Virus record (IMG/VR): IMGVR_UViG_3300009149_000048
Span: 1-51,211 of that record
Direction: 5' to 3' (one strand)
Source of the DNA: a virus
DNA length: 51,211 nucleotides
The notes beneath the pieces are model-generated. The model had not been told where the DNA came from, did not search any database, and worked only from the letters and a program-made list of their open reading frames with translations. A program made the translations under genes and the position numbers. Positions 3,270-51,211 of the stretch are shown here, in pieces. Each line of letters starts with the position of its first letter. The first letter of the stretch is position 1.

Positions 3270-3294
3270 GCTACACCACTAAAGATGATGTAGT
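3270..3294 (-). repeat. Left-end hairpin of the TnpB element
   Basis: Arms CTACA (3271-3275) and TGTAG (3289-3293) enclose CCACTAAAGATGA, the same inner sequence as the right-end copy at 1922-1946. The stem differs by a compensatory change: G-C in the right end, A-T here. That supports selection on the folded form. Confidence 0.7.
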
Positions 3295-3334
3295 TTTCTT
3301 TCTCAAAAAATCTTTGATTTTTAACTATAATAAG

Positions 3335-3376
3335 AAAAAGGTTTCATTAAGTATTTAACCCAACGAAACCTTTTTT
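3335..3376 (-). terminator. Terminator of the UvsW-like helicase gene
   Basis: An 11-bp stem, AAAAAGGTTTC (3335-3345) with GAAACCTTTTT (3365-3375), sits 17 nt beyond the helicase stop codon. In the minus direction the stem is followed by a T-rich run. It is symmetrical enough to act in both directions. Confidence 0.75.
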
Positions 3377-3393
3377 ATAATATAATTAAATTA

Positions 3394-4893
3394 TTAATCT
3401 TTATAAATAGATTTTCGTATTCTAGAATGATTTTTAAGCATGTTATCACCCTTGGAATTTAGACAATCTACATAATCATATAATCTTAATTTATCCTTGT
3501 CTTTGTGATTTCTTAATCCTCTACCGATAGATTGTCTAACAATAACATCTGATTTAAAAGATTCAGTAAAATGTATGTTGTGTATGTTAGTTATATCCAG
3601 ACCTGTTCCTAGAGTACCATAACTAGCAACTAATACTTTGTTTTTTCCAGATTTCATTAATGTTTTTATATCAGACCTGACATCTGTTTTTATTTCACCA
3701 TATATAAAATGTATTTCTTTATCTGTATTTTCTTCTAAATAATTTTTTAATAATTTACCATGTGATTTTCTGTGAAAAAGAACTAATTGATTTTTTTCTA
3801 TTTTAGATACTATTTTACTTATTGTTTCTTTTCTGGGTTCATATTGTATGACAAAATCTTGTTCTATTTTAAGAAGTTTACCTTTATCTTGACCTTTCAT
3901 AGTGGTTTTGATATCATCGAATCGTTTTCTTATATCTTCTGGATAAATAAATTCAACAATGGCAATATCAATTTGTGCAATATCACCTTTATCTTGTAAT
4001 TCTTTTGCTTTGATTTCCATCACTTTTGGTCCTAAATAAGCCTGTAGTGTCAAACTATCTAATGTACCTTGTTTTGGTATAGTACCGGTTAATCCAAATC
4101 GTCTTTCTGCATTTATACATTTACTGATACAATCCTTTATACTGGTGGCCTTGGATCTGTGTGCTTCGTCAACTATTATAGTATCGAATAATGCAAAGTA
4201 ATTATTTTGAAATTTTGCTAATGATTGAAAAGTTCCTATGTGTATATTTTGTTTAGCTAAAAAATCTTTCTTTTCACCACCATGAATTTGTTTTATATTC
4301 AAAGGAAATCTATTTTCTGCTAATAGAAAACTATTATATTCGTGGAAATTTTCATATGCCTGTATTACTAGATCAATAGATGGTACTATCATCAAAAATT
4401 TATTACTAATTGACCTTTCTTGAAAAAAGACAATACAAATAAATATAATTAATGATTTTCCTGCGGCTGTTGTTAATTCACTAATTGATAATTTATTAGT
4501 TAAGATTTTATATGCGGTTTCTACTTGATAATCTCTGGGTATAAACGGTTCTCCTTTACTGTTAGTAGCACCATAGAATTTTTCATCTACCCATTCTTGA
4601 AATTCTTTTTTGGATACATCTTTATAAAAGATAGCATCTCCTAAACCAGTAATTTCTAAAGGGTATTTGTAAGTTTCAGCAATAGTTTTTAATTCTTGCC
4701 ACAACCCAATAGGAACATATTTGTCTTTGTGAAAGTAAGAAATAATACCATTCCACTTTGCTTTAACTGCGGGAGGTAAAAAATTATAATGTTCTAATTT
4801 TTTAGTTAAAGATAAACTTAACTGTTTTCTTTCTAGTGTAGTTGCATCAACTAAAGTTAATATTTTATTATTATGTGATGTTTCGAATCGCAT
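3394..4893 (-). CDS. uvsW: UvsW-like SF2 DNA helicase
   Basis: 499 aa, close to T4 UvsW. Superfamily 2 motifs are in order: Walker A TTAAGKS (141-147), motif II DEAH (242-245), motif III-like LTGT (268-271), and motif VI QSIGRGLRNHK near residue 470. The N-terminal 110 residues form the extra UvsW-type domain preceding PRDYQ. In T4, UvsW unwinds branched DNA and R-loops and drives the switch to recombination-dependent replication. The next gene upstream (4928-5383) is UvsY-like, matching the uvsY-uvsW adjacency in T4. The gene has its own terminator and a near-match late-promoter motif (4918-4925) ahead of the start. Confidence 0.9.
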   Translation of the reverse strand: MRFETSHNNKILTLVDATTLERKQLSLSLTKKLEHYNFLPPAVKAKWNGIISYFHKDKYVPIGLWQELKTIAETYKYPLEITGLGDAIFYKDVSKKEFQEWVDEKFYGATNSKGEPFIPRDYQVETAYKILTNKLSISELTTAAGKSLIIFICIVFFQERSISNKFLMIVPSIDLVIQAYENFHEYNSFLLAENRFPLNIKQIHGGEKKDFLAKQNIHIGTFQSLAKFQNNYFALFDTIIVDEAHRSKATSIKDCISKCINAERRFGLTGTIPKQGTLDSLTLQAYLGPKVMEIKAKELQDKGDIAQIDIAIVEFIYPEDIRKRFDDIKTTMKGQDKGKLLKIEQDFVIQYEPRKETISKIVSKIEKNQLVLFHRKSHGKLLKNYLEENTDKEIHFIYGEIKTDVRSDIKTLMKSGKNKVLVASYGTLGTGLDITNIHNIHFTESFKSDVIVRQSIGRGLRNHKDKDKLRLYDYVDCLNSKGDNMLKNHSRIRKSIYKD

Positions 4894-7964: not shown

Positions 7965-8081
7965 TTTAGTAGAAAGAATAAAGACTATTAGCCAAGATAT
8001 TAGAAAGAATAAAGAGTAAAAGAATAATAGTTTAGTAGAAAGAATAAAGACTATTAGCCAAGATAACAGAAAGAATAAAGA
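7965..8081. repeat. Iteron-like direct repeats
   Basis: The 14-mer AGAAAGAATAAAGA occurs at 7971, 8002, 8037 and 8068, at spacings of 31, 35 and 31 nt, close to three helical turns. Copies one and three belong to an exact 35-nt repeat (7965-7999 and 8031-8065) that also contains CTATTAGCCAAGATA. Such phased repeats are typical of initiator- or regulator-binding arrays. Confidence 0.7.
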
Positions 8082-8152
8082 CAAATAAATCAGACATATA
8101 TATAAAGATTCATAGTAAAAATATCATTTAATTAGTATACAATTATAAAGAT

Positions 8153-8422
8153 ATGACTTATAACAATTTTAATTATTCTGAAAAACACAATACCTTTAGG
8201 TGTTTAGTAAATGTCTACAATTATTTAAGGGAAGATTTAGATGTAATTTTTAGAGGTGACTATAAAATAATAGTTACTGATTATAACAAAGAAAAAGATA
8301 TTATAAATATTCCAGATAGAGTTTCAGTAAAGGAAGTGCAATGTCACTTTGTTGACAATAATGAAACTATTTTAATGATAGAATTAATATTAAAAGATTT
8401 GAATATAGAAGTTAAGTGGTAA
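8153..8422 (+). CDS. Hypothetical protein, 89 aa
   Basis: Small, slightly acidic protein of alternating beta-like segments (DYKIIVTDYNKEKDIINIP, then ETILMIELILKDLNIEVKW). No motif recognised. It is the first of two plus-strand genes downstream of the iteron region and ends 4 nt before the guanylate-kinase-like gene, so the two are cotranscribed. Opposite orientation to the virion genes suggests early expression. Confidence 0.65.
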   Translation: MTYNNFNYSEKHNTFRCLVNVYNYLREDLDVIFRGDYKIIVTDYNKEKDIINIPDRVSVKEVQCHFVDNNETILMIELILKDLNIEVKW

Positions 8423-8426
8423 CAAT

Positions 8427-8933
8427 ATGATACAAGAATTTAGAAATGATGCACCAATAAACAAAAGAATTATCATTGTTGGTAAAGGTGGTTCTGGAAA
8501 AGACTATCTTAAAGATATTTTTGTTAAAAGGGGGTTTAATTCTAGTGTATCATTTACAACTAGACCACCTAGAACAGGTGAAATATGTGGAAAAGAATAT
8601 TATTTTTGTTCCGATGAACAATTTCAAGAAATGATTGATAATAATAAATTTTTCGAATATAAACAATTTAATGGGTGGTTTTATGGTACAAGTAAATTAG
8701 AGTTTAATACAGCAGATGTATTTATAATGACACCACCATCTATTGATGATCTATCAAAGGAAGATAGAAAATCGAGTATGATTATTTATCTAGATATAGA
8801 AGAATCAATTAGAAAAAAAAGACTAAGTAATAGAAACGATTCAGATTCAGTAAAACGAAGGTTATTAGCCGATAATAAAATGTTTCAAAATTTTACTAAC
8901 TATGATTTAAGATTATCTGACCCAAATTTTTAA
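8427..8933 (+). CDS. Guanylate-kinase-like nucleotide kinase
   Basis: 168 aa, shorter than bacterial Gmk (about 200 aa). The P-loop is GKGGSGKD (19-26). The GMP-binding signature SFTTRPPRTGE (42-52) followed by GKEYYF (55-60) is typical of guanylate kinases. A KRLSNRND segment near 130 fits the lid. The reaction would be ATP plus (d)GMP to ADP plus (d)GDP, supplying nucleotides for phage DNA synthesis. The C-terminus ends soon after the lid helix, so it is compact. It converges with the minus-strand gene ending at 8940, 6 nt away, with no clear terminator between them. Confidence 0.85.
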   Translation: MIQEFRNDAPINKRIIIVGKGGSGKDYLKDIFVKRGFNSSVSFTTRPPRTGEICGKEYYFCSDEQFQEMIDNNKFFEYKQFNGWFYGTSKLEFNTADVFIMTPPSIDDLSKEDRKSSMIIYLDIEESIRKKRLSNRNDSDSVKRRLLADNKMFQNFTNYDLRLSDPNF

Positions 8934-18690: not shown

Positions 18691-21600
18691 TTAAACTACT
18701 GTTATGTTCGTTATAAAACTAAGCGTCACATTCTTATCACTGGGTTTTATAAAAGTAAATTTATATTCAAATTCACTGAATCTAGTACGAGAAAATCTTA
18801 TATTTTCTAATTTAGTAAATCCATTTGTTAATAATTCTTGTTCTGTCATATTAGATTCAAATAGTGGTTCATTACTTAATTTACTAGAATATTTAACATA
18901 TGCATACACATTTTGTGAAAAATATCTAGGTAAAATGTTTGTAGTTATATATCTTTCAATATCATCATCTAAAGAATCTAACACGTTGTAATTAAAATTA
19001 GGGTTAACATAAGTTTCGAACAATGAAACTAACCTTGGTTTTATAGTTTCTATTATTTTTTTAGTATTATTCAACACACCGCTTATGTTATTATTCGAAT
19101 TTCTAGTTAATCTAATATCTAGAACGGGTGATAACAAATCAGGATTGTATGTATATTTTTCTAATTTTATCAATTCCGGTATATTCATAATAGAAGATGC
19201 TAAAAAACTACTAATTTCTTTAGGTTCTATGTATCCGGGATAACTAGTAAAATTAAATTTACTATTATATTTTTTGTGAAAGTTGTGATCCCAACAACTT
19301 CTGAATATATAAGAATCCTGTTTATCAATAGAAATTTCACCTATTTTCCAAAACTGTGGACGTAAGGCGCTACCTTTATTCAAATCTAATATTGTTAATG
19401 GGTTTTGTTCATTTATTTTGTTTATATATAGTTGTTTATATAAGGCAAAATTAGGATATGTACTAAAAAATTGTACATTAGTAAATCTTAAAGAATTTCT
19501 TATATCACTTGTGAATTTGTTGTCATAATTGTCTCTATATAACATAACATTTTGAACTTTGGGATTATATCTACCATTAAATCTATACATGGTTGATATA
19601 TATGTAGAATTTAATCCAGATGTCTTTACACCAATTGGTTTAAAATCACTGTTTTTAACACCATTGAATATTATGGGTTCTGTTGTAATATAATCAGCTT
19701 TGGTGTTTGTTGAATATAAATCAAATTCCAAAAGAAATGTATTTTTATCAACTGTTCCATTTTCGTTTATTGTAACATATTCAATATCAGGACTCCCATT
19801 ATTTATTTTATCAAATATAGACGCGAAACTAATTTCTTGTATGGTTCCTTTAAACGCATTAAAACCACCAGATTCATATGTTGGTATTTTATCGAGACAA
19901 TCTTCTGGTAATGGATATAGGTTTATATATGATAACCCAAATGGGTATTCGGTCGTACCTAATTTATAAAAGAATTTCCTTGCTCTTATTGTGTTTTTTG
20001 TTATAGAAGATATTTGATCTATTATTATAGAGGTGTTAGATGTTAATTCTATCACAATTTTATTATAAACCCCTTGTTCATTTGGTAATATTTGCTTATC
20101 AAAATTAGGTAACGAATTAGATATTATGTTTTGTGATCCGTTAATCACATATACACCAGATTCTATGGTGAAATTTGGAACGTTTGTCCCAAATTCATTT
20201 TCTATAAAAGGTGAAATGGCACCAGATACTTTAATATCTGCAAAATCACCGGTGTTATTATATTTGTTTTCAATAACGTACAATAAACATCTGTCTAAAA
20301 ATAATTGACCTGTCGTCCCTCTAGATAAATAGTAATCATCTAAGTCTGCTTCGATAAACATTGTTATTGTTTTGAACTTTTTGTTTTCTATAACAGAAAA
20401 TGCAATTGGTTCATTTGTTTTGTTTGTAAAAACCGCACTAAATTTATAATCATTAAATTCGTCACTAGAAAAAACACCAAGGTCTTGAATATTAAAATTC
20501 AAAGGGTTTTTGTTTTCTACCCTTCTTTTGAATTTAATTTTTGCACCTCTGAAAAAAGTTTCGCCAAAAGAATCTTCGTTTCCGCCACTAACTATTGTGT
20601 ATTTGGTCATCATTGGAAAAGAAACACCGTCTACATTATATTGTGTGAAATATTCTGTGAACCTGTCTTGTGATATATCATACAATTCTGTTTTTTCTAA
20701 ATATCTATCAAAATAAGAAAATGAATCTATTTTTTGTTCAGTTGTCAAGTAATATGGATATTCTTGTAAATAGTACCATTCATGTGTAAAGAATCTAAAA
20801 TCTGGTATTTTATTTACATTAGAAGGTGAAAAGTTATCATAACTGAATGCACTGTTATTTGATAACCTGTAATTGTTTTCCCTAACGTCTGAACCACCAT
20901 CGTCATAAACCCACTTATTTATAAATGGTATTATTCTACCCTTTATAGCGAGTTCTGGTAGTTCGTTTTCTAAAAGTCTATCGTATTCATTGGTTATAGA
21001 TTGTATTTCACCAGTGTCTTCATTTAAACTACCACCGAGTTTCTTAAACCCACTATCTCTGAAATTTTGAATAGCGTTTTGTATAGTTAATGAAAATGAT
21101 CCAATATCACCAGCTTTGTTTAAATAATTTTCTGAAAGTAATTCTAAATACCCATCACCATCTTTACCATATTCACTCCTAAATTGATCTATGTCAAATT
21201 GTTTAATAGGATACATAGACATCAAACCAACTTTATTAGTTTCAACATCAAATATTTCACAATATCCACCATTTGATATCTTTATATCATCGGAACAATT
21301 TATAGATATATAAGAATCGAAATCATCAAAATTAACAATCCTACCATTTTGAAATATAGGCTCGTCTAAATAGGCTGATATAGAATCTATTTTAGTATAC
21401 CAATCTATGGTTTTTAAAAATAAATTTGTTGAAAAATAACTTTCAAATTCTTTTGGAATTCTTATTCTATTTTGTGGTATATCATTACCACCTTTAAATT
21501 TTTGTTGAATTATTAAAAAAGACGGGTCTTCATACATAGATGTCGCACCAGAAACTATTGCACTATAATCTATGAAATTAGGTTGTCCTAATGTATTTCT

Positions 21601-23307
21601 TCGAATGTTAAAATTTGTTATAGATTCAAAATTTTCATATGGTACACTTACAACATTAGAAAAATTAACATCATCACTGAACATTAAATATTCATAGTTG
21701 TTCCAATATTGATTAGTACCCCTTGTGAATACAATGACCCTATCGAATTTTGATATAGAAAAGATGTTAAAATCTTCGTCTTGGTTAGCGTAGTTATTTA
21801 TGGCTGTGGTTATTGCATTTGCAATTTCTTCTGGGTTACCCGCTAATGAAAATTTATTATTAATAAATGAACCAGCTGTTAATGATACATCACCTATAAA
21901 AACTTGGTTTATATTGAATTCACTTGAATTTTCATTTACATTTCTTATCCTCAATTCAAAAGAATTAGTTGTACCTTCTATTTTGAATTCAAAATATGAC
22001 CTACCTTCTTGATTAGATTTCGATGCCGGTATAATACCTAAAGATTCTTTTGTGAATCCCTTTAGGTCTCTAGTGTTTACAAATGTATTTTTTAAAACAA
22101 GTTCGTTTGAATTCCAATCAACATCATTTTTGATATCATAAAAGGTATCATCAGTTGAATATACGTAAGGTAAAAAATTACTATTTTTAATATCTGAACT
22201 TAGTAATTCATATTGATTATCATAGTCAACAAATAATTTAACACCACTTTCGTTTTCTAATGCTATGTTATTATCACTAAGTATGTTTACATCATATACG
22301 GATTCTATATTTTTATTTTGTGGTAAATTGTTATATTTTTTAGTATAAAACGCTGCACTATCTAATTTAAAATTAGTGATGTCGTTTCTGTTAAAATATA
22401 ATCCAAAATATCTATTTATTTCAAAGTCTTCATTCGATTCATCATCAAATAAAAATTCTAAGTTTATTATATTTGGATGTATAACACCATTGATTGAAAA
22501 TTGATTAGTTATTAAATTATCAAATTCTGTTATTGTTCTATCGACCGGAAACGCTTCACTGAACATATTGAACGATTCGTTGGTGAAACCACTTTTCCTT
22601 AATGATATTCCGTTGACCGTACTTTGTTTATTGATATTCCAATCAATAGTTAAAGAACTTTCTGGCATTCTTTCATCATTTATGTGATTTCTTAAAAAAG
22701 TGCCAATAGTTGAATCTGGTCCCATATCGAAAACCTTATGTAACTTTGCATTTTTCAAAATAGTTTCGAAGAAATAATTACTATTTTCTTCATTCTCAAA
22801 ATAGTTTGTATTGTATATTTCCTTTTCTGTATTTTCATCAAACGGCGTTTGTTGATTTTTAGTGTTTACCGAAACTGGATTAGGTATTTTAAATATGGCA
22901 AAATATTCAGGCACATCGTTAGGTTCTAACCAAATTGGTGCCAAATATGAAATTTGTTCATCATATAACTTAGAAATCTTGGGAGTGGCCCCTTGTTGAT
23001 AATTAGTATAATATTGCTTTGCAAAACTGTTTTTTATCGAAAAGAAATCTTCATTATCTTTTATACCATATAAAATTGATTCTGGAATACTACCACTGTT
23101 GAATAAATTATATATGGCTGTTGACCAATCGTTTTCTAAATCTAGTTTTACTTTTTTATATTTATTTCTAGTAAGTTCTGGACTAGCATCTATTGTTTCT
23201 ATATAGATGTCCCCATTACTATCAACAACCAATTTTAAATTTCCCGTTAATTTGGGGTTTGTCTTTAGTAAAGAAAAAGATGTTTTGTTTGTGAAAACCT
23301 TAGCCAT
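18691..23307 (-). CDS. Giant virion structural protein, 1538 aa
   Basis: The largest gene in the window. No family recognised. It is rich in Asn, Ser, Phe and Tyr with dense beta-strand patterns and no signal peptide. There is no long coiled coil, so it is unlikely to be the tape measure. An exact ATTAAATA at 19 nt upstream and a terminator stem just before that make it an independent late transcript. Its position among large tail genes downstream of the gp25-gp6-gp7 wedge block suggests a baseplate periphery or fibre-attachment protein; this is inference. Confidence 0.65.
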   Translation of the reverse strand: MAKVFTNKTSFSLLKTNPKLTGNLKLVVDSNGDIYIETIDASPELTRNKYKKVKLDLENDWSTAIYNLFNSGSIPESILYGIKDNEDFFSIKNSFAKQYYTNYQQGATPKISKLYDEQISYLAPIWLEPNDVPEYFAIFKIPNPVSVNTKNQQTPFDENTEKEIYNTNYFENEENSNYFFETILKNAKLHKVFDMGPDSTIGTFLRNHINDERMPESSLTIDWNINKQSTVNGISLRKSGFTNESFNMFSEAFPVDRTITEFDNLITNQFSINGVIHPNIINLEFLFDDESNEDFEINRYFGLYFNRNDITNFKLDSAAFYTKKYNNLPQNKNIESVYDVNILSDNNIALENESGVKLFVDYDNQYELLSSDIKNSNFLPYVYSTDDTFYDIKNDVDWNSNELVLKNTFVNTRDLKGFTKESLGIIPASKSNQEGRSYFEFKIEGTTNSFELRIRNVNENSSEFNINQVFIGDVSLTAGSFINNKFSLAGNPEEIANAITTAINNYANQDEDFNIFSISKFDRVIVFTRGTNQYWNNYEYLMFSDDVNFSNVVSVPYENFESITNFNIRRNTLGQPNFIDYSAIVSGATSMYEDPSFLIIQQKFKGGNDIPQNRIRIPKEFESYFSTNLFLKTIDWYTKIDSISAYLDEPIFQNGRIVNFDDFDSYISINCSDDIKISNGGYCEIFDVETNKVGLMSMYPIKQFDIDQFRSEYGKDGDGYLELLSENYLNKAGDIGSFSLTIQNAIQNFRDSGFKKLGGSLNEDTGEIQSITNEYDRLLENELPELAIKGRIIPFINKWVYDDGGSDVRENNYRLSNNSAFSYDNFSPSNVNKIPDFRFFTHEWYYLQEYPYYLTTEQKIDSFSYFDRYLEKTELYDISQDRFTEYFTQYNVDGVSFPMMTKYTIVSGGNEDSFGETFFRGAKIKFKRRVENKNPLNFNIQDLGVFSSDEFNDYKFSAVFTNKTNEPIAFSVIENKKFKTITMFIEADLDDYYLSRGTTGQLFLDRCLLYVIENKYNNTGDFADIKVSGAISPFIENEFGTNVPNFTIESGVYVINGSQNIISNSLPNFDKQILPNEQGVYNKIVIELTSNTSIIIDQISSITKNTIRARKFFYKLGTTEYPFGLSYINLYPLPEDCLDKIPTYESGGFNAFKGTIQEISFASIFDKINNGSPDIEYVTINENGTVDKNTFLLEFDLYSTNTKADYITTEPIIFNGVKNSDFKPIGVKTSGLNSTYISTMYRFNGRYNPKVQNVMLYRDNYDNKFTSDIRNSLRFTNVQFFSTYPNFALYKQLYINKINEQNPLTILDLNKGSALRPQFWKIGEISIDKQDSYIFRSCWDHNFHKKYNSKFNFTSYPGYIEPKEISSFLASSIMNIPELIKLEKYTYNPDLLSPVLDIRLTRNSNNNISGVLNNTKKIIETIKPRLVSLFETYVNPNFNYNVLDSLDDDIERYITTNILPRYFSQNVYAYVKYSSKLSNEPLFESNMTEQELLTNGFTKLENIRFSRTRFSEFEYKFTFIKPSDKNVTLSFITNITVV

Positions 23308-30099: not shown

Positions 30100-33000
30100 T
30101 TAGGTCACCCTAATCAATCCATTTTTAGTAACAGTTTTTATATTACCATTAGTATCTTCTAGAGTTAGTGATATGTTATATTCACCTTCTTCTGTAAAAA
30201 GATAAACCATGTATCTATTCAACCAATTGAATATTACCTCTCCTGTTTCTACTTTTGTTATCTTCCAAACAGGGTTTTTAAATCCCGGCATTTTAGATAT
30301 ATCATAATTGAAATATATCTGCGTGTAAGGACTCACATTTCTTTGGTAATAAAGAACATCTAAACTATTCCATGTAGCATTAGTTGTTATACACCTAGCA
30401 TATTTAGTACCATACACGTTATTGTATTTAATAATATTAATTTCATTACTATCATAGAATTTATTAACAGCAAGAATCTTTTCATCTCTATAATCAGCTG
30501 TTGCTCCTTGATAAGATTTAACAATATTAAATTCCCATTCTTGAAATGGTGAATTATCATTTAAGTCGTCATTTAAGTCTGAAAGTGTTGTTATTGAATT
30601 AGGTATGTCGTAAGAAATGTTATCTATTGTTATTGTTCCTTGTCCCGTTGCGCCCGTTGATCCAGTTGCACCAGATTGTATATTTAGTGTTGAGTATATG
30701 TCGAATGCTGATGGGGAATCCCCTAATACACCAAACCCATTTAAAGGGGTATTATATTCAGACACTTCACAATTAGTACCACTAAAATAAAATCTATTTG
30801 GTGCCTCAAATGATTTAGAAACGGCCACTATTTGTTCAATAGTAGTTGCACCATATTCTATTGTTGGTCTATATTCATATAAAAAACTATATGCTATTGG
30901 GTATAATTCTTCATCTAATTCATAAACTTGATCTACAAAGTCTATATAAACATTATTAATATCACTATTTCTAGTAAACGTTATAGATTCTAATAACGTA
31001 CCACCATCATCTAAAATATCGAAACCAAATGTACCAGTGTCTTGTAATTCATTTATATAAAATTTAGTAAATGTGGGACTGAGGGTATCCCAATAAAGGT
31101 GATCGGCTTCTTCCCAAGTAGTTTCATCACCTATATTTTTCCATGTATAAGAATTTATATCACCCTTACCTCTTAATATGGCATCTTGTCTTACTAGATT
31201 TTGATAGAATTCGACCCTATCCGTACTATGCCATGTTATAATAGCATCGTCTGTAATAGTATTTGGTAAAAACGGTAAATCCCATGTACTGTTCATATCA
31301 TTCCAAGATATTTTATCTAAGTCATCCCACGAAACATCTTTAAAATCCATTATTTTCCAAGCTGTAAAGTTTGGTTTCTTTTGTTCAACGGTAATATAAT
31401 TGATTTCTGTGTTTCTACTATACGACCCATACATATCATATAGTGTCAATTCTACAGTATATTCACCTTCGTATGGTAAATTAACCGCCCATTCTCTTAA
31501 TGTTCTTGGATTTCCTTTTATTGAATTTTCCCAATATGGTGTTTTTTCGTTTGCCTTTTTGTAAATAAACCACTCTATTTCATAAAAATTAGAATTTCCT
31601 ATATCATCCCAAGAAACCCCAGAAAAAGGATCGTCTGCATTATTATATGGAATAGTAGGAAAACCAGAATCTGTCGAAAAATTAAAATCGTTATAGTTGT
31701 GTTTTTCATCTAAAATGTTCCATGTTACTTGTGCATCGTTCCAAGAAATGTCAAAAGATGTGTTTTTTAATAAAATAGGATACCCAACTGGAATGTCTTC
31801 ATTATTATCTAATTCTAAAACATTAAATTTTCTATCGAAAAAATATTGTAGATATGCTTCTTTATAATCTTCTATGGGTTGGTCACCATTCAAGAAGTCT
31901 TGATATGATAGTGTAGGTGGTGTTCCCGCAAATTGACCTTGTGTTACAGTTGATTCAATTACCGCATTTGTACTGAATCTTTCAACAAATAAAATTTTAT
32001 TACCATCTAAGTTTATATAAAAGTTGTTAAAGGGTTCACCTAGTGATAACAACCCATCATATAAACGAGCCATGTTGCTATTATTTGTACTTTGATATTC
32101 CGCGGTAATTTCAAAACCTACACCACTAACTGCGTCGAATATCCTAAGTGTGTTATCATAAAATGAATTAGTTAGTGTGAATTCCCTTACCTTTAAATCG
32201 GTACTACCATCTAATAATAAATCTGGACCTATCCTAGTACCAACCCATTCCAATGGTCTTAAATCTTCAATAAAACCAAAATTACTAGGGTAAACATCAA
32301 AAGTTGGGTTTATGTTTATATCTATATTATCTATTCGATTAAACGTTTGCCAATAATTTAATTCTATTTTAGTGTAATATAGCGCTTCACCTATTATATC
32401 AACAATCCTACTGTTTAGTGGTAGAAAATATTTTTTTAATTTGTCTTTTAATGCATATAACTTTATTAGTATTTCATCAATTGTGAATTCAAAAACTTCT
32501 TTGGTTATAGGTAAACCATCCTCATCAAATTCCCCAGTCTCTTCTGTTATTTGATAGAACATACCAAACTTATTAGTTTTAGTATATATTTTAGACGGAA
32601 ATAAATCAGAAAGTTCTTCGGTGTTGTTAGAATTCAACAATACACTTTCTATATCAACTGGTCTATATTTTCCAAAATTTTCTGAATCAACCTTTACGTT
32701 TTTCCAATATTCTTTTATGGTCAGTGATTCATATCCAAAAAACTTAATTATATTTATAAGTGCCTTGTAAGAACCAAGATATGGAAAAATATTATGAAAT
32801 TCTAATAATAATTCTTTTCTTTTCTTGTTGAGGACGTTAAAATCTATTTCTTCTTCTTTTACATTAGTAGTGTCAAAAATTAAGTAATCTTTATTGTTTA
32901 CATTATTACCTAGTGTTTCTAATAACAGTGGGAGTCTAGTATCTTCAGCAACGGTATCTACAAAGAAAAAAATCTCACCAATTTTTTCTTTTGAAATCAA

Positions 33001-33516
33001 ATCCTTGAAGTAAATATTAACTTTACCAACAAAAGAATTTTCTTCACTAGATGAAAACCCTATATTTGCCGTAAAATAATCTTGTCTTAAATTGTTTATG
33101 TCATAAGAATTTGGTATATTTGTATAGGTAGCACCAGACACGGTGGTATTGCTAAATGAGGCATCATACGTCGCTTCTACAGCAACTTCTGTTTTTTTAT
33201 CTATATAGTATGTCTTATCGTCTAAAGTGATGTCAAACGCAAAAAATTCATCTTGTGCAGTGGGGTCAATTTCGAAAACAATTTCAGCTTCATCTGAATC
33301 TACATTTGTTGGTTTAACAAACATAAATTTATTATATTTTTCACTATAAACTTTTTCTAAAACAACAATTTGTTCAGACTCTATTAAATCTACCGATATA
33401 GGTTGTTCCGATAAAACATAATTACCCCTATATAACCCACTATTAGAATCATAGAATAAATTAAGATTGTTTCCTTTTTTGTTAAAAAAACGTAAGTTTT
33501 CTTTTTTTAATGACAT
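30100..33516 (-). CDS. Baseplate wedge protein, gp7/P2 gpI-like, with PKD-like domains
   Basis: 1138 aa. Residues about 225-270 (KKRKELLLEFHNIFPYLGSYKALINIIKFFGYE, here split: KKRKELLLEFHN, then YKALINIIKFFGYE and IKEYW) follow the tail protein I signature, where a helix-rich segment precedes a Glu-Trp/Tyr-Trp end. Its place right after the gp25-like and gp6-like genes matches gpW-gpJ-gpI of P2 and gp25-gp6-gp7 of T4. PKD-like beta sandwiches are seen near residue 687 (EGEYTVELTLYDMYGS) and at the C-terminus (EGEYNISLTLEDTNGN). Between 585 and 1050 short Trp motifs such as SWDDIG, SWDDLD and SWNDMN recur. A collagen-like GATGSTGATG lies near 950. Confidence 0.65.
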   Translation of the reverse strand: MSLKKENLRFFNKKGNNLNLFYDSNSGLYRGNYVLSEQPISVDLIESEQIVVLEKVYSEKYNKFMFVKPTNVDSDEAEIVFEIDPTAQDEFFAFDITLDDKTYYIDKKTEVAVEATYDASFSNTTVSGATYTNIPNSYDINNLRQDYFTANIGFSSSEENSFVGKVNIYFKDLISKEKIGEIFFFVDTVAEDTRLPLLLETLGNNVNNKDYLIFDTTNVKEEEIDFNVLNKKRKELLLEFHNIFPYLGSYKALINIIKFFGYESLTIKEYWKNVKVDSENFGKYRPVDIESVLLNSNNTEELSDLFPSKIYTKTNKFGMFYQITEETGEFDEDGLPITKEVFEFTIDEILIKLYALKDKLKKYFLPLNSRIVDIIGEALYYTKIELNYWQTFNRIDNIDININPTFDVYPSNFGFIEDLRPLEWVGTRIGPDLLLDGSTDLKVREFTLTNSFYDNTLRIFDAVSGVGFEITAEYQSTNNSNMARLYDGLLSLGEPFNNFYINLDGNKILFVERFSTNAVIESTVTQGQFAGTPPTLSYQDFLNGDQPIEDYKEAYLQYFFDRKFNVLELDNNEDIPVGYPILLKNTSFDISWNDAQVTWNILDEKHNYNDFNFSTDSGFPTIPYNNADDPFSGVSWDDIGNSNFYEIEWFIYKKANEKTPYWENSIKGNPRTLREWAVNLPYEGEYTVELTLYDMYGSYSRNTEINYITVEQKKPNFTAWKIMDFKDVSWDDLDKISWNDMNSTWDLPFLPNTITDDAIITWHSTDRVEFYQNLVRQDAILRGKGDINSYTWKNIGDETTWEEADHLYWDTLSPTFTKFYINELQDTGTFGFDILDDGGTLLESITFTRNSDINNVYIDFVDQVYELDEELYPIAYSFLYEYRPTIEYGATTIEQIVAVSKSFEAPNRFYFSGTNCEVSEYNTPLNGFGVLGDSPSAFDIYSTLNIQSGATGSTGATGQGTITIDNISYDIPNSITTLSDLNDDLNDNSPFQEWEFNIVKSYQGATADYRDEKILAVNKFYDSNEINIIKYNNVYGTKYARCITTNATWNSLDVLYYQRNVSPYTQIYFNYDISKMPGFKNPVWKITKVETGEVIFNWLNRYMVYLFTEEGEYNISLTLEDTNGNIKTVTKNGLIRVT

Positions 33517-33747: not shown

Positions 33748-35562
33748 TTAACTTAATTTTCTAGGTATAGATTCTCTAATTACAATATTTAGTGCTGATA
33801 AATTATCATTATTTATACCGTTAATATATTGTACACCATTTCTATCAATAAAACCACCCCTTACTAACGGCAATTCTCGGTTCCCTATTACTATATCACC
33901 AAATTCATCTAACCCCAAGTTTGGATTTTCACCGGGTCTTAAAACTATTTTTTCGTTAGTTTCTATAGAATTACTGTCGTTTAGATTGGGTATGTCGATA
34001 TTTTCTCTAATTTTATTTAAAAGTGCGCTCGTTCTGTTATTGTTATTATAATCTATATTTTTGAAATAAAAACCATTTAACATAGCCTCTTCATTTACCC
34101 CAGATATAAAATCCACATATACAGAATCAATACCATCTATTTCTTCTATTAATTTGATAATGTCTGATCTAGGAATTTTGTCTCGTCTGTTTATGTTTAA
34201 GAAATATTCACCCACCTTATCAGTAATTTCAGCTTTGATTACATTTTCACTAATTATATCATCGAATACCCTTATAAAAACATTCAAGGCATATCTAGTA
34301 ATTATGGGATCAATGATACTTAATTCAGTGGATATTAATTGTTGTCCACTTTTATTAATTACATCATAAACAGCATCTTTGTCCTCTTCTGTTAAAAAGA
34401 AATTATTTGTATTTGTACTGAAATAATCTGAATTACTTTGAACTTTTCTTGAAATATCTGGCAATAAAAATAAATAAACTACGTTATCATCATCTAAATA
34501 TTGGTCACCAAAAGTATTGAATGCGTCTATATAACTAAATTGATTGAATTTAGACAAGAAATATATATAATTAGTAGGATTTGCAAGTACTAAACCCCTA
34601 CTATTTTTATTCATTAAAAACCTTGTCAATTCTTTGTTTTCTGCATCTGCTCCCATAGTTATTTTTTTAGAAACACTGATATCAAAAACCTCATTCAAGT
34701 CTAAGTCACCACCAAAACCGTCTGATATGGAATCAACAAATTCTAATATTATGTTAGAAGATGCTTCGCCAATATTACCATTAGCACCACTAGATGCAAT
34801 CCATTCTACTTGTATTGTTTCCCCGGTATCTGGAATATATCCATAATCTTCATTACCAAAGTAAATATCAACACCACCATTTATACCTGTTTTTATAATA
34901 ACACCCCTTTCGTTTTTTTTCATGTCATAAAGGGATTCAAAATTTTTAAATTCTTGTCCATTAACAAAAACAGTTACATAATTGTTTTCTATTTGTGCAA
35001 ATCGAGTAGGTATGTTGAAAGATTGTAGATTTGAATTGTCACCAATAAAATTAGATGTGTTTAATTCACCTTCTATAACTTGAAAATAAAACAATTCTGA
35101 ACTAGATTTTGGTATAAAAACAGAATCAGAATCTAATAATATTAGATAATTTCTTTGATTGTTTTTACATAAAATTTTTGTATATTTTTGTATTTGTATG
35201 TTTGAAACCGCAATTTCGTTAGCTGCACCCGGTTTTATCTTTAACGAAATTTCTCCCTTTGCGCTAATTGGTCTACTTGGATTGTGACCGGTTAATCTGG
35301 CCAGTCCTAAAATAGAATTTTCTTTGTATGCCGTTAATATATTTCTTTCGTTTACAACATCTTCTAGGTAAAAATATTGTAATTTATTCAATTCATCTAA
35401 TACATCAATAATTTGTCCATACGGACTTGAAGGGGAAAAGTTTAATCCTCTTTTGTCATATTCTTTTACTAAATAAGTTTCAATTTGTTGTTTTAGTTGG
35501 TCATCAAACAACCTACTTTTATCTATAATCTTATTAACTTGATTTTTTGTTCTATTTGACAT
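33748..35562 (-). CDS. Baseplate wedge protein, gp6/gpJ-like
   Basis: 604 aa (T4 gp6 is 660 aa). The baseplate J-type signature is visible around residues 228-265: GGVDIYFGNEDYGYIP, then GETIQVEWIASSGANGNIGEA. The helical N-terminus and the C-terminal beta domains fit the family. In contractile tails gp6 dimers form the ring that joins wedges. The gene follows the gp25-like gene by 47 nt, and its own promoter (ATTAAATA, 19 nt upstream) starts a transcript covering the gp6-, 74-aa and gpI-like genes. Confidence 0.85.
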   Translation of the reverse strand: MSNRTKNQVNKIIDKSRLFDDQLKQQIETYLVKEYDKRGLNFSPSSPYGQIIDVLDELNKLQYFYLEDVVNERNILTAYKENSILGLARLTGHNPSRPISAKGEISLKIKPGAANEIAVSNIQIQKYTKILCKNNQRNYLILLDSDSVFIPKSSSELFYFQVIEGELNTSNFIGDNSNLQSFNIPTRFAQIENNYVTVFVNGQEFKNFESLYDMKKNERGVIIKTGINGGVDIYFGNEDYGYIPDTGETIQVEWIASSGANGNIGEASSNIILEFVDSISDGFGGDLDLNEVFDISVSKKITMGADAENKELTRFLMNKNSRGLVLANPTNYIYFLSKFNQFSYIDAFNTFGDQYLDDDNVVYLFLLPDISRKVQSNSDYFSTNTNNFFLTEEDKDAVYDVINKSGQQLISTELSIIDPIITRYALNVFIRVFDDIISENVIKAEITDKVGEYFLNINRRDKIPRSDIIKLIEEIDGIDSVYVDFISGVNEEAMLNGFYFKNIDYNNNNRTSALLNKIRENIDIPNLNDSNSIETNEKIVLRPGENPNLGLDEFGDIVIGNRELPLVRGGFIDRNGVQYINGINNDNLSALNIVIRESIPRKLS

Positions 35563-36796: not shown

Positions 36797-38101
36797 TTAA
36801 TCTAGCATTTCATCTAAATTTTCAACATCTACATCTATTATCATAGTATTATCAGCAATTGTAGTACTTGAATATGTACCTTTTCTAAAAATCCCACCAT
36901 TTATATCAGAATCTAATAGTTTTACATCATCTAAATAACAATTAGTAAATTCACAATATATATAATTTGCATTTTTAATCCTACTATGCTTAAATATAGT
37001 ATCTTGGGATTTACACCCATCTAAATCAGAACCAGAAACCCTACAATCATATAATTCTGTGTTTAATAAAACGGTGTTTATTAATCTACAATCATGTAAT
37101 AAGATTGCTGGATTTTCTATAAATGTTCTTTTTATAGTAAACCCAGACCATTCAATTTTAGAACTATCGGTATCGTAATTTATAACACCAGACATATTAA
37201 ATTTAACTTCTTTCATTTTAATTAGAATTGGGAATATGTTTTTCCATATTATAGGAAAAAACAATTTTAAAATTTCTTTGTTATCTTTAGTGTCTACTTT
37301 TAATTCTACATTTTTAAATATGTTACTGAAATTAAAATAGTTTTGTCCTGCTAGAAAAACTTTTTTCTTTGGTTCTAATAAATCTATTAATTTTTTCTTT
37401 ATATCATCTGGATTTGATTTGTAACAATCTTTGATACTTTGTAAAAAGAAATCTAATAAAAATAATATATCTGATTGTTGATGTTCATATTTTTTACCAC
37501 CAAGGTATCTAAATTCTAAATAGTTCTTTTTTATTTTTTCGAAATTAATACCATAATATTTTGACATCGGATAAACAAAACTACTTCTACTTGTTGTTAT
37601 GTTTGCAAAATCAAAATTGTTATGTAACGGCACTATGTCTTTTATAGATTTAGTATAAATGTTATCTTCTCGATTTGGAAAACGTTTATAAACTTCAGAT
37701 TCGTCGAAAGTTAAAATAAACTTTAGGAGGTCTATGTTTTCGATATAGTTATTTTTCGGGTAACTTAAATTTAGGTGCAAACCACATCTATCGGTTGTCT
37801 TTACATCCTTTGTGTTTCTTATCCATTTAAGAACTTTTATTAGTACTATCCTAGCATGGTTGTATTGTAATGGTCCCGTGATTAATTCACATGTATATTC
37901 CCCAGCACTAAAATCATCTTCTATTTTCCAATGGTTGTCGGTAGGTACAAAATCCGTATGATGACCATTTTCTAGTTTTATATCAACTTTTAGTATTTTT
38001 TGTAATTCCCTTTTTATTTCTGTCCTTGTGAATGTGGGGTTTCTTATAAATTCAAATTCAATACCAACAGTTGTATTGTAAATTTCTGGGTCTTTTTGCA
38101 T
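36797..38101 (-). CDS. Amidoligase-family enzyme fused to pentapeptide-like beta-helix
   Basis: 434 aa. Residues 1-300 carry the motifs of the glutamine-synthetase-like amidoligase family: GIEFEF (13-18), WKIEDDFS (58-65), ELITGP (72-77), CGLHLNLS (106-113) and LEFRYLGGKKYE (195-206). Such enzymes form amide bonds between carboxylates and amines using ATP. From about 305 to 420 the protein changes to short repeats with a hydrophobic or small residue every five positions (HDCRLINTVLLNTELYDCRV, SDLDGCKSQDTIF), a pentapeptide-like right-handed beta-helix. The gene sits within the baseplate block, has an exact ATTAAATA 18 nt upstream and follows a strong terminator. A role in covalently modifying a virion or host protein is inference. 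Confidence 0.75.
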   Translation of the reverse strand: MQKDPEIYNTTVGIEFEFIRNPTFTRTEIKRELQKILKVDIKLENGHHTDFVPTDNHWKIEDDFSAGEYTCELITGPLQYNHARIVLIKVLKWIRNTKDVKTTDRCGLHLNLSYPKNNYIENIDLLKFILTFDESEVYKRFPNREDNIYTKSIKDIVPLHNNFDFANITTSRSSFVYPMSKYYGINFEKIKKNYLEFRYLGGKKYEHQQSDILFLLDFFLQSIKDCYKSNPDDIKKKLIDLLEPKKKVFLAGQNYFNFSNIFKNVELKVDTKDNKEILKLFFPIIWKNIFPILIKMKEVKFNMSGVINYDTDSSKIEWSGFTIKRTFIENPAILLHDCRLINTVLLNTELYDCRVSGSDLDGCKSQDTIFKHSRIKNANYIYCEFTNCYLDDVKLLDSDINGGIFRKGTYSSTTIADNTMIIDVDVENLDEMLD

Positions 38102-38163: not shown

Positions 38164-38286
38164 GATTTCTAAAACATATTTATTATATGGGATTTCAAGT
38201 GTTTTTAACATCAACACTTTTTCAAACCATTTCTAAAACATATTTATTGTCCGAATTATCAAGTATCTTAACCTTAACACTTTCCC
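38164..38286 (-). repeat. Decayed tandem copy of the S1 gene 3' end
   Basis: The last ~58 bp of the S1 gene (38229-38286) are repeated, with drift, just downstream of its stop codon (38164-38223). A 20-nt core ATTTCTAAAACATATTTATT is identical in both (38165-38184 and 38229-38248). The downstream copy still encodes NKYVLEI in one frame, matching NKYVLEM, but the rest is broken by stops. Confidence 0.7.
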
Positions 38287-38584
38287 CTCTTTCTAAATCT
38301 TTGTCACTTTTAAGTTTACTTATGTGAATTAATCCAGTTGCATTTTTACCTAATGAAACGAAACTTCCATATTTTACAGTTTTTACAACTCTACCATCTA
38401 CTATTTCACCCTTTGTGAATTTTGGTTTAGATGCTTCTTCCGGATCAACAACAAATCTCGATAGAATTATTTTTCTATTAGTAACTATTTCTTTCAAATA
38501 AAAATCTATTTCCCTACCTGGTGTAATAGTATTATTATCAAACATATCATTTAAAACATCATCGAAATCATCTTTGTGAATCAT
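38222..38584 (-). CDS. S1-domain protein, C-terminal part of an interrupted gene
   Basis: 120 codons from an internal ATG. It holds the end of S1 repeat 3 (MIHKDDF through IILSRFV) and a complete S1 repeat 4 (GEIVDGRVVKTVKYGSFVSL, GLIHISKL, SVKVKILD). The same frame extends upstream without a stop to 38803 and encodes the first half of repeat 3 (GAVYTDKVTGTKPFGVFIEF) and the end of repeat 2. Thus this is the tail of a four-S1-repeat protein that begins at 39340 and is split by the TAA at 38801-38803. Whether this part is translated separately is unknown. No promoter-like motif or leader is obvious near 38584. Confidence 0.6.
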   Translation of the reverse strand: MIHKDDFDDVLNDMFDNNTITPGREIDFYLKEIVTNRKIILSRFVVDPEEASKPKFTKGEIVDGRVVKTVKYGSFVSLGKNATGLIHISKLKSDKDLERGESVKVKILDNSDNKYVLEMV

Positions 38585-38800
38585 ACCCGTTAATACATCG
38601 TTAAATTCGATAAAAACACCAAACGGTTTTGTTCCAGTTACTTTATCTGTGTAAACAGCACCTATTTCTAATTTTTCAATTTCTAACGGTATTAGTGTTT
38701 CTAAATAAGCTCTGTGAGAAACTATTAATTGATCTTTGAATTTAGAATATTTGTTTTCGTTTTTAATTGGAATAACTTTTATATTTTCCCCTATTAAAGA

Positions 38801-39340
38801 TTAAAAGTTTAACAATTTGTTTATTCCACCTAAACTCCCCGGCATAAATACGTCTACACCTTCTATATCTAATATATATCCATTTTCTGTTAAATTTAAT
38901 ACCTTAGCGTCGTATACTTTTTTATTGTCAGCATCTTTCATTTCATTGTATAAAGATGTTTTTACGTGTTCTAAAATACTGGCTCTTAAATAATTATCTG
39001 TGTTTGTGACTAATGCTTCGATTTCTTGACCTATACTATAATTTTCTGGATCTAATCGGTCTTTTTCTATAGAAATATACGCAAATTCTTTACTACCTAA
39101 ATCTAATAGTATACTTTCTTTGTTTATTTGTGCAATTTCGCCTTTGATTGATTGGCCTATTTCTAAGACTGGGTTTTTTGGTAATCTACTAAACGATTCA
39201 TCATAAAGTTTTAGTAATTCTTCTACATATGACTCATTTGATAGTAATTTACCATTTTCTAAAATGATTTCTTCATTTGAGTTAGATTCAAATATGGAAA
39301 TGTCATCTGAATTACCATATATTGTTTTTTGTTCATTCAT
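38801..39340 (-). CDS. S1-domain protein, N-terminal part ended by an in-frame TAA
   Basis: 179 aa. An acidic leader of about 50 residues precedes S1 repeat 1 (about 60-120, IGQSIKGEIAQINKESILLDLG) and the first half of repeat 2 (KVYDAKVLNLTENGYILDIE, VFMPGSLGGINKLLNF). The stop at 38801 cuts repeat 2 in mid-domain. The sequence after the stop in the same frame (SLIGENIKVIPIKN, then LIVSHRAYLETLIPLEIEKL) is the natural continuation. S1 repeats bind single-stranded RNA, and the intact protein resembles a shortened ribosomal protein S1. It is placed between a 171-aa virion-cluster gene and the amidoligase gene. Confidence 0.75.
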   Translation of the reverse strand: MNEQKTIYGNSDDISIFESNSNEEIILENGKLLSNESYVEELLKLYDESFSRLPKNPVLEIGQSIKGEIAQINKESILLDLGSKEFAYISIEKDRLDPENYSIGQEIEALVTNTDNYLRASILEHVKTSLYNEMKDADNKKVYDAKVLNLTENGYILDIEGVDVFMPGSLGGINKLLNF

Positions 39341-39902: not shown

Positions 39903-40616
39903 TTATTCACTATCTAGTGTCACTAGTGTACTTTTAAATTGTGCCCATTCACTTTGAAATTTTTGAACTAAACCTGCCCACGTAGGTGAACCACTAATCG
40001 GCCCTGATGGACCAGCCGGTGTTGCTATTGCACTAATTTTACCTAATTCTGTTATAAAGGAATTCAATAATTCTTCTAGTGTGTCACCTAAAACAGCGGG
40101 TTCCGCAGATGTTCCTTCTGAACCTAAACTAATACCATCTTCACTAATATGTATAACCTTTTCAGTAGAACCATTTGAAATAATAATACTTTCATCTTCG
40201 TTTTTAATTTGAACGAAACTATTTGATTTTCTAATCATTAATCCTTGTGTATCGGTATAGAATATTTCTAGTGTTTTTTCTTCACCTATTGTTTTGTCAT
40301 ATGCAATAGACCAAACCAACGGATAGTCGTCTGATATTTCATCTAGTAAATCATCATTGATCTTTGCAATTCCCATATAAAAAGGAATATTTTCATCACC
40401 ATTTTCGAAGAAAACATTACAAATTTCTCCAATTTTAGGAATCATAATAGTTCCAGAAGATAATTGATTATATGGAATAGACCATGGTATAACCTCTTCG
40501 TCTAATTCATCAAATTTTCCAAATATCCTAATTTTAACCCTTCCGAGTTTTAACGGATCTTCTACATCTATTACCTCCCCAACCCATATAGTTCCAAGTG
40601 TTACGTCTTTAAACAT
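39903..40616 (-). CDS. Baseplate spike protein, gp5 OB-fold type without lysozyme
   Basis: 237 aa, much shorter than T4 gp5 (575 aa). The N-terminal OB fold is clear: WVGEVIDVEDPLKLGRVKIR (11-30), then PWSIPYN and GEICNVFFENGDENIPFYMG. This matches the gp5/VgrG/gpV start (WVGIVEDRLDPLKLGRCRVR in T4). No lysozyme domain follows. Instead there is a short beta region (TLEIFYTDTQGLMIRKSNSF, VIHISEDGISLG) that could form a small spike, and a helical C-terminus. The hub genes lie directly upstream, as expected for gp27-gp5 partners. Confidence 0.8.
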   Translation of the reverse strand: MFKDVTLGTIWVGEVIDVEDPLKLGRVKIRIFGKFDELDEEVIPWSIPYNQLSSGTIMIPKIGEICNVFFENGDENIPFYMGIAKINDDLLDEISDDYPLVWSIAYDKTIGEEKTLEIFYTDTQGLMIRKSNSFVQIKNEDESIIISNGSTEKVIHISEDGISLGSEGTSAEPAVLGDTLEELLNSFITELGKISAIATPAGPSGPISGSPTWAGLVQKFQSEWAQFKSTLVTLDSE

Positions 40617-48303: not shown

Positions 48304-51211
48304 TTATATTAAATTTGCCCAAGCACCATTTTCATAACCTTGGAATTTGTTATCTGTAGTATTGTATATTATCATACCATTAACACCCGTTAATGCGTTT
48401 CTTTCGGTTGTTGTTAATCTATTTAATATAGCAACTCTAGTGACACTTTGTAAGTCTAAACCCGCACTTGAATTAGTTTGAGCGGTTGCACCAATAACAA
48501 CAGCACCCGTACCATTTATATAACTAGTCGCTGTTTTTGCTAAAAGTATAGTAGGTGTTGCCTCAAACCAACCTAGCGCAAAACTATTCTGAACGTTATT
48601 AGTCAACCTATTGCCACTATTGAATCCATGACCTAAAGTAATCGCACCATATTCAGTAGAGTTTACTAAATGACCTATACCGATTGACTCTATATCTGTT
48701 GTAGTTACGAGCGTACCAATTGATATGGCTCTTGTGTTTGTTGCTACTGACTGCCTACCTATGGTTACTGTGTCGGCACCTATGTTATCCGTGCCCGCAT
48801 TGTTCTGGTAGCCTATACTTATGGCGTTTAGCCCAACGGTTCCCGTTGTGGAGCCTGACTCTAATCCGATTGAAATTTGTCTAGTACCCTTAGCTCCAAC
48901 TAATCTACCTATAGCCACGATATTATTAGAAGTAGCGGTAATATTGCTTCCTAGTATAATATTATCTGATTGTGAAGCAGCTACCGAAGAAGCAAAGGCA
49001 ATCATTACCGTCCTAGAACCTCCTGTGTTAGCCGTAGAAGTACCCATTACGACACCTCCTGCTGTACCTAGAAGTTGACCACCTGCGGTGGCAAATCCAT
49101 ACGTACCTTCAACTCGTGCTCCAGTTCCAATTGCGATACCATCGCCACCCGAAAAGGCTAAGTTTCCTATTGAAACGCCATTCACTGAAGATGATCCGTA
49201 GCCAAGTAATACCGACCGAACGCCAGTAGTAGTAGCAAGTGATCCTAATACTGTTGTTTGGTTACCTGACCCACCATTTGCGTTATTCCCAATTGCTACA
49301 CCATCCGTGCTATCGCTTAAAGCACCACCAATTGCTAGAGAGTTAAGTCCCGTTCCTGCATTGACCAACACACCCCGTAGGACAACTTCACCATTAACCC
49401 CAGCTGAATCGTCATATATATAGGCAAAGCCATCCTCGGTGGCTGTTGGATTCTTAGCTAAGGTGGATAGTGGCTTAGTACCTATTGCGTTTATAAGCCT
49501 ATACGTAGTGCCTAATTCTCGAAGGTTGTGGACCCCATCAAGATCTTTCCACCCCATCCCATCACTAGGTGTGAATCCAGCACTATCAACTCTATCTTTT
49601 AAATAGATATGTGCCCTGTCGTTCGTTGATACTCTAGAATCGCTGAGATTATCAAAGTCGTTAATAGTAACAATAGCTTCTGATGAGGGGATTAGGGTCC
49701 CAGAAAAGGATATGTTTCCATCACCCGGAGACGTTCTTAGTATGTTAGAGTTACTAGTGTCCTTCACAAAGAAACTGTAAGCATCTAGAGAGGCATTTAA
49801 TGTTATATCTCCTGCATTAGCTGCAACCTCTCTTACTCTTAACCAGTTACCACTCGTTGTAAAATTGAAATCCGCAAAAGTTACGCTACCACTCTTAAAA
49901 AAAGAGATGAGTCCAGTATTGTGACCTCTAAGCTGGAAGGAACCAAAGTTGTTTACAGAATCATACCCAAGGTTTAAATAAGTATTTGTACTAGAGTTGG
50001 GACCGATTCTTACAGAATTCTGTACACTTCTATAATAATCAACACCGGGTACAGAGGTTAAGTCTTGCCTAAGGTTTGAATTCTCTATTCCGTCACCTGC
50101 TGCGTTTGATATTGGTATAAAATTATCAGTTAAGCCAGATATACTGGGATTAGGGATCAGTACTATTTCCCCGTTGACACCTGCTGCATTATCATAAGAG
50201 TAGATATAGCCATCTTCTGTTGCAGTCGGGTTCTTAGCCAAGGTGGATAGTGGCTTAGTACCTATTGCATTTATAAGCCTGTAGTTTGCACCAGACTCCC
50301 TAACCTCAAGAACGTTACTATTTGAACTGAGCCAAATTGAATTATTTGAAGGTGCTGTAGCTGTCTCGTCATAACTACCAAGAAACAATACGTGTGGTCT
50401 TGGATTTGGAGTTGTGTTTAATGACCAAAATATGGCATGGGCGTTTGCCGAAGCAGCAAGTCCTGCCATACCATAGCCAAATGTAACTCTTTGGTCATTG
50501 TAGGACATGAAATTATATCCATTTGATGCATTTGCTCTAGGATCATTAAAACCAACCCCGTACTGGTGACCAAAATAATCAACAGCACCAGAAACATGAG
50601 CATACGTATCAATTATACCAAAAGTAGTATTGCTTTGTGAAACAAAGTTGGTTAGTGTAAATGATCTAGCTCCAGTTGCATCTAAAGAAAGTCTTGAATA
50701 GTCTCTATCTAATGTTGCAAAACCAGTAACCGCATGACCAGCTAGAAATCCAATGTTATTAGCTAGATGAGATACTTCCCAATTTTCCAGCCCTGTTGTG
50801 CCATTAGTTAGCCTATACGTGTTTGTAATCTTGTTTAAAGCACTTTTTAACGCCCCGTTACCCCTTATTACAAAAAGGCTGTCGTCTGTTGTTCCTTCAT
50901 CTAAAAACAATAGCTCAGAAGTGTTGCTACCTGTGCCCGTTATGATGTTAGAAAGTCTCGAATTCTCTATCCCGTCACCAGACGCATTAAATATAGGTAT
51001 AAAATTATCTGTTCCTGAAAGCGAAGCCCCAGCTAGCAAATCAGTTGTCGTTGTCCCGTCGTGAAAATTTAAGTTTGTACCATTAAACCACATATCGCCA
51101 CTAATAGGAGTTGTCTTGTTTACTCCTGTATTAGGGTTTAAGTTTAAATGCGCCTTGGTAGTTGTGTTTTCACCAACTCTAAAGTTTGCAGAACCAATAG
51201 ATGACAGAGCA
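48304..51211 (-). CDS. Tail fibre with YadA-head-like beta-roll (5' end outside window)
   Basis: The frame remains open to the right edge. Codons upstream of the ATG at 51093 encode a typical fibre segment (KAHLNLNPNTGVNKTTPISG), so that ATG is internal. The N-terminal part is repetitive (DNFIPIFNASGDGIENS and DNFIPISNAAGDGIENS; two NAIGTKPLSTLAKNPTATED copies). Residues about 590-870 (numbered from 51093) are a ladder of 14-16-residue units such as GVAIGNNANG, GVSIGNLAFSG, GIAIGTGARVEG and TVTIGRQSVAT, as in the left-handed beta-roll of trimeric autotransporter heads. The tip ends with YNTTDNKFQGYENGAW. Codons are richer in G+C than in neighbours, which suggests recent acquisition. Probably the host-recognition fibre. 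Confidence 0.8.
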   Translation of the reverse strand, partial: ALSSIGSANFRVGENTTTKAHLNLNPNTGVNKTTPISGDMWFNGTNLNFHDGTTTTDLLAGASLSGTDNFIPIFNASGDGIENSRLSNIITGTGSNTSELLFLDEGTTDDSLFVIRGNGALKSALNKITNTYRLTNGTTGLENWEVSHLANNIGFLAGHAVTGFATLDRDYSRLSLDATGARSFTLTNFVSQSNTTFGIIDTYAHVSGAVDYFGHQYGVGFNDPRANASNGYNFMSYNDQRVTFGYGMAGLAASANAHAIFWSLNTTPNPRPHVLFLGSYDETATAPSNNSIWLSSNSNVLEVRESGANYRLINAIGTKPLSTLAKNPTATEDGYIYSYDNAAGVNGEIVLIPNPSISGLTDNFIPISNAAGDGIENSNLRQDLTSVPGVDYYRSVQNSVRIGPNSSTNTYLNLGYDSVNNFGSFQLRGHNTGLISFFKSGSVTFADFNFTTSGNWLRVREVAANAGDITLNASLDAYSFFVKDTSNSNILRTSPGDGNISFSGTLIPSSEAIVTINDFDNLSDSRVSTNDRAHIYLKDRVDSAGFTPSDGMGWKDLDGVHNLRELGTTYRLINAIGTKPLSTLAKNPTATEDGFAYIYDDSAGVNGEVVLRGVLVNAGTGLNSLAIGGALSDSTDGVAIGNNANGGSGNQTTVLGSLATTTGVRSVLLGYGSSSVNGVSIGNLAFSGGDGIAIGTGARVEGTYGFATAGGQLLGTAGGVVMGTSTANTGGSRTVMIAFASSVAASQSDNIILGSNITATSNNIVAIGRLVGAKGTRQISIGLESGSTTGTVGLNAISIGYQNNAGTDNIGADTVTIGRQSVATNTRAISIGTLVTTTDIESIGIGHLVNSTEYGAITLGHGFNSGNRLTNNVQNSFALGWFEATPTILLAKTATSYINGTGAVVIGATAQTNSSAGLDLQSVTRVAILNRLTTTERNALTGVNGMIIYNTTDNKFQGYENGAWANLI
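49451..49500 (-). repeat. Internal fibre repeat, copy 1
   Basis: 48 of 50 bases match 50231-50280, 780 bp away, with weaker similarity extending 60 bp to the left. It encodes the NAIGTKPLSTLAKN segment. Confidence 0.8.
50231..50280 (-). repeat. Internal fibre repeat, copy 2
   Basis: Partner of 49451-49500. Offers a site for unequal recombination that would shorten the fibre by 780 bp (260 codons) in frame. Confidence 0.8.

Follow-up and report, generated by a model that had tools for sequence, protein, structure and literature searches.

In Escherichia coli, the N-terminal segment of ribosomal protein S1 (bS1) anchors to uS2 and is sufficient for assembly with the 30S subunit (PMC4288201). 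Proteins resembling ribosomal S1 (rpS1-like proteins) have also been described in huge phages, whose genomes are poor in Shine-Dalgarno sequences (Al-Shayeb et al., 2020, PMC7162821), and in that study genomes over 634 kb were predicted to have Bacteroidetes hosts. The ribosomes of Bacteroidia do not recognise Shine-Dalgarno sequences (PMC9976891, PMC6847099). A protein of this general kind is encoded in the viral DNA analysed here, a stretch of 51,211 nucleotides (IMG/VR record IMGVR_UViG_3300009149_000048) that we call the window. The first-pass annotation of this DNA considered phage-encoded S1-like proteins to be notable, and they are indeed of interest, although such proteins had already been reported from huge phages in 2020 (PMC7162821). 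The family in the window resembles the rpS1-like proteins of huge phages in that it carries several S1 (OB-fold) domains, in a single open reading frame (ORF) in its relatives, and occurs alongside few Shine-Dalgarno sites. It differs from them in having four S1 domains and no PHROG match, and the copy in this record is interrupted. Start contexts in the window are A/T-rich, and the Bacteroidota host proposed by the earlier annotation fits both these contexts and the host predictions for huge phages.

The S1-like gene lies on the minus strand (39340-38222). Its translation yields one frame of 372 codons followed by a terminal TGA, with a single internal stop, a TAA at codon 180 (38801-38803). 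As a consequence of this stop, the frame is listed as two ORFs, 39340-38801 (179 aa) and 38584-38222 (120 aa), which share one register and are separated by 72 codons that are all open. Pfam assigns an S1 domain (PF00575) to residues 60-124 and an S1_2 domain (PF13509) to residues 144-168, both upstream of the TAA, and recognises two further S1 stretches downstream of it. Domain 1 corresponds to positions 38969-39163. Domain 2, placed by the start of the PF13509 match and by alignment with bS1, covers approximately residues 143-210 (38711-38914, with an approximate end) and is cut by the TAA, and the equally approximate limits of domains 3 and 4 are residues 222-295 (38456-38677) and 308-371 (38228-38419), all on the minus strand. 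Thus, three claims made from the letters alone were borne out: a single TAA breaks one frame of about 372 residues, the two ORFs are in register across 72 open codons, and S1 repeats stand on both sides of the stop. Two smaller features mark the end of the gene. A tandem repeat with a unit of about 64 bases (1.9 copies, 38165-38283) spans the last codons and the bases beyond, and the terminator is TGA in the window versus TAA in relatives.

When the family profile was compared with solved structures, bS1 was the best match (9zcd_A, E=1.6e-27; E. coli bS1, E=5e-20), and the alignment is collinear over domains 1-4, indicating homology beyond a single S1 domain. The intact protein is therefore probably similar to domains 1-4 of bS1, and a predicted helix at residues 37-51 (39188-39232, minus strand), which resembles the N-terminal segment of E. 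coli bS1, is a probable uS2 anchor. By analogy, this helix and domain 1 would dock on uS2 as the E. coli segment does, and domains 3-4 would bring phage mRNA to the host ribosome. The phage protein differs from bS1 in that it is phage-borne, has no domains 5-6 and carries a longer N-terminal extension. An AlphaFold model (mean pLDDT 50) was too weak for a fold search. This low-confidence model puts the stop within a domain 2 helix that precedes the last strand of the domain, and so the 179-residue product would be missing the end of that fold. Lacking this segment as well as domains 3-4, such a product would presumably have no activity beyond, at most, occupying the uS2 site.

Homologues of the S1-like gene were found in 18 relatives, all of them uncultured or metagenomic sequences, and the gene is uninterrupted in every one. 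Eight close viral contigs are 69-71% identical over the S1-like protein (two share the same S1 sequence), eight distant contigs are 32-35% identical and encode proteins of 387-397 residues (two are identical), and the remaining two are genomes of uncultured phages (635 and 642 kb). When bacterial and archaeal genomes were scanned, the result was one weak match that involved a single S1 domain. The first-pass annotation had proposed comparing the interrupted codon in related phages, and this comparison proved informative: codon 180 is CAA (Gln) in 8/8 close relatives, its column holds E, D, S or N in the distant contigs and huge phages, and a stop is present at this position in 0/18. A search of the viral collection with a degenerate pattern that covered the site and a TAA or TAG after it had no match, and the two DNA-pattern matches around the site that arose (L019 and L020) are due to chance, with no S1 gene there. 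We also looked among the 18 relatives for two separate S1 proteins, the result that the earlier annotation had said would overturn its interpretation, and found none.

Gene order around the S1-like gene is the same in the close relatives. Its syntenic neighbours in the window, both on the minus strand, are a baseplate OB-domain protein (39903-40616) and an amidoligase with pentapeptide repeats (36797-38101), and these two genes flank the S1-like gene in 8/8 distant contigs as well. Because the frame is open in all relatives and its neighbours are kept, we regard the S1-like gene as a conserved part of these phages. The 252-aa gene at 1032-1790 (minus strand) corresponds to two separate ORFs in relative G002, reflecting either a fusion here or a split there. 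Roughly 3.5 copies of a 31-base unit form an array (7970-8082) just before the plus-strand genes at 8153-8933.

Most probably, the stop reflects a point change at the level of this record, one that is very recent or not real, in a normally intact gene; we place the probability of this interpretation at roughly 85%. A single C-to-T change in one record would convert CAA to TAA at codon 180, and it could stem from an error in consensus or assembly, from template damage, or from a nonsense variant that segregates within the phage population. The sequence beyond the stop is consistent with a recent or unreal lesion. The 192 codons past the TAA are 75-81% identical to the same part of the relatives' single ORFs, which shows that the continuity of the frame is not due to chance. 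Differences between the window and its relatives in this part are mainly silent (dN 0.12-0.16, dS about 1 or more), and dN for the same part between intact relatives of similar distance is 0.11-0.13. At columns invariant in seven other sequences, the window differs at 13/89 before the stop and 9/138 after it; the corresponding counts are 15/91 and 4/133 for contig L001 and 6/82 and 6/135 for contig L002. By these sequence comparisons, any excess of changes in the window after the stop appears at most weak, and no relaxation of constraint is clear. Since the downstream part is about as conserved as it is between intact relatives, the stop must be very young, ineffective or not real.

A further reading is that the phage makes two S1 products on purpose, either by stop-codon read-through or by a functional split with internal initiation. 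The frame past the stop is open and conserved, as this would require, and in-frame stops with conserved parts beyond them reportedly occur widely among prokaryotic genes (PMC7918605). We nonetheless consider a purposeful arrangement of this type very improbable. The codon-180 stop is shared by no relative, and no special structure follows it: RNA fold energies past the stop are at chance level (z -0.04 and -0.25), and we rejected structure-aided read-through on this ground. The only in-frame restart codon past the stop is the ATG at 38584 (38582-38584, minus strand). It resides inside domain 3, so that a protein initiated at this codon would have half a domain at its N-terminus. Moreover, its Met is present in 8/8 close relatives and in the two huge phages, all of which are without the stop. 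An internal start at 38584 can therefore be ruled out, as the codon specifies a conserved internal Met. Taken together, the ordinary use of TAA as a terminator, the failure to find a tRNA, the unremarkable fold and the internal position of the ATG make read-through or a true split unlikely. Of the four options that the first-pass annotation had offered, a recent nonsense mutation and a sequencing error are favoured, and read-through and a split with internal initiation are unlikely causes of the interruption.

Testing the relatives' proteins against the window revealed one other gene with in-frame stops. This gene codes for a UvsW-like helicase (3355-4893, minus strand), which carries ResIII, DEAD and Helicase_C domains and ends early (3394-4893). 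It exhibits a lesion of the same kind, the adjacent codons TAA TAA at 3391-3396, past which the conserved tail FNYIIKKVSLG continues in frame, and the gene is open at this position in 7/7 relatives compared. A strong hairpin with a terminator-like appearance (z -7.6, 3290-3392, minus strand) overlaps the UvsW frame at its end together with the bases beyond, and it may place the conserved tail under some additional constraint at the DNA level.

A near-identical twin contig (G009/L040, IMGVR_UViG_3300024262_000574) proved valuable for evaluating this second lesion. The twin matches the window at 12,850/12,852 bases, and the two mismatches are both in the UvsW codons, which read CAA CAA in the twin versus TAA TAA in the window. 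In other words, the sole differences are two stop-making C-to-T changes located three bases apart. The sequence of the window is identical to the copy in its source record. Only about 5% of all possible substitutions in these genes, and 1.7% of transitions, create a stop, and for this reason two stop-making differences alone would be surprising as independent events. The double change is easier to accept as one local event, and the comparison with the twin indicates an event that is either local to the record or very recent.

If the S1 stop is counted, the record holds three Gln-to-stop changes, all of the same type and on the same strand. Their presence in two conserved genes suggests a consensus problem or clustered C-to-T changes. 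We recognised no comparable sense-gene lesion in the relatives' contigs; the apparent interruptions encountered there are, by our own reading, antisense-frame matches of short ORFs. Searches for a near-identical contig covering the S1-like gene found none, and the same was true of searches via the gene at 18691-23307 and via that at 48304-51093, the latter yielding only short C-terminal matches. The last of these genes (minus strand) codes for a 929-aa protein whose final 40-90 residues match many viral contigs with up to 92% identity, whereas the rest does not, and thus its C-terminal end looks like a shared module.

Two lesions of the same kind, both at Gln codons, are more than would be expected from random errors, and this is a point against our preferred explanation. 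A different reading of the data is that the phage is beginning to read TAA as Gln by means of an ochre-suppressing tRNA-Gln of its own or of its host. If so, CAA-to-TAA changes would be tolerable and might first become visible in the S1-like gene and close to the end of UvsW, at a stage when most genes are still terminated by TAA. Each of the three in-frame TAA codons occupies a position at which relatives or the twin have Gln, and a tRNA-Gln turned TAA suppressor, without TAA reassignment, occurs in a crAss-like phage (PMC7886860). The recoding seen in crAss-like and Lak phages likewise places in-frame stops at Gln codons of conserved genes. However, the phage recoding that has been reported concerns TAG or TGA (PMC7886860; PMC9523058), whereas here it would concern TAA, at three codons only. 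TAA is also the main terminator of this record.

Several further observations weigh against recoding. TAA terminates 32/43 ORFs in the window, a count that rests on mechanically called ORFs, and most genes for which relatives exist stop at a place homologous to the relatives' ends. Together, these two findings rule out a general reassignment of TAA. The open sequence past the stops of 30100-33516 and 33748-35562 has a trivial cause, in that the next gene simply continues in the same frame. Neither the window, which represents an incomplete genome, nor 37 relative loci yielded a tRNA gene. Furthermore, if TAA were neutrally tolerated, silent differences from the twin should also exist, yet the comparison shows none. 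We know of no demonstrated code change for TAA in phages. We judge this reading to be the least probable of those weighed here, with very little chance of being correct, but should these three TAA codons be genuine and decoded as Gln, they would represent an early stage of a code change.

We therefore return to a record-level point change in a normally whole gene, which could take either of two forms. In the first, to which we give not quite even odds, the TAA is an error of the record, arising from the consensus, the assembly, a damaged template or a later change to the record. The twin supports this form because it differs from the window only at the two stop-making changes, and the absence of recognised sense-gene lesions from the relatives' contigs is in agreement. 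Errors are not expected to favour stop codons, however, and the S1-like gene lies outside the twin's coverage. In the second, the stop is a real nonsense variant that segregates in the population, and its 179-residue fragment either represents loss of function or may block the ribosomal S1 site. We regard this as a credible, if tentative, possibility. The change needed is a single C-to-T, and the fragment retains the counterparts of the E. coli segment that suffices for assembly with 30S and, when synthesised, inhibits bulk translation (PMC4288201). Yet the gene is intact in every relative, distant ones included, and the absence of the similar UvsW change from an otherwise identical twin fits a record-level problem as well or better. 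Because of the twin contig, we lean slightly toward a consensus problem.

These findings indicate that an isolated in-frame stop in a metagenomic phage record can be a change at the level of that record, and that a near-identical contig can expose it. The S1 stop itself probably matters only as a warning of this kind. The S1-like gene is a good subject for tests of initiation takeover, because it is conserved and syntenic and belongs to phages with little Shine-Dalgarno signal.
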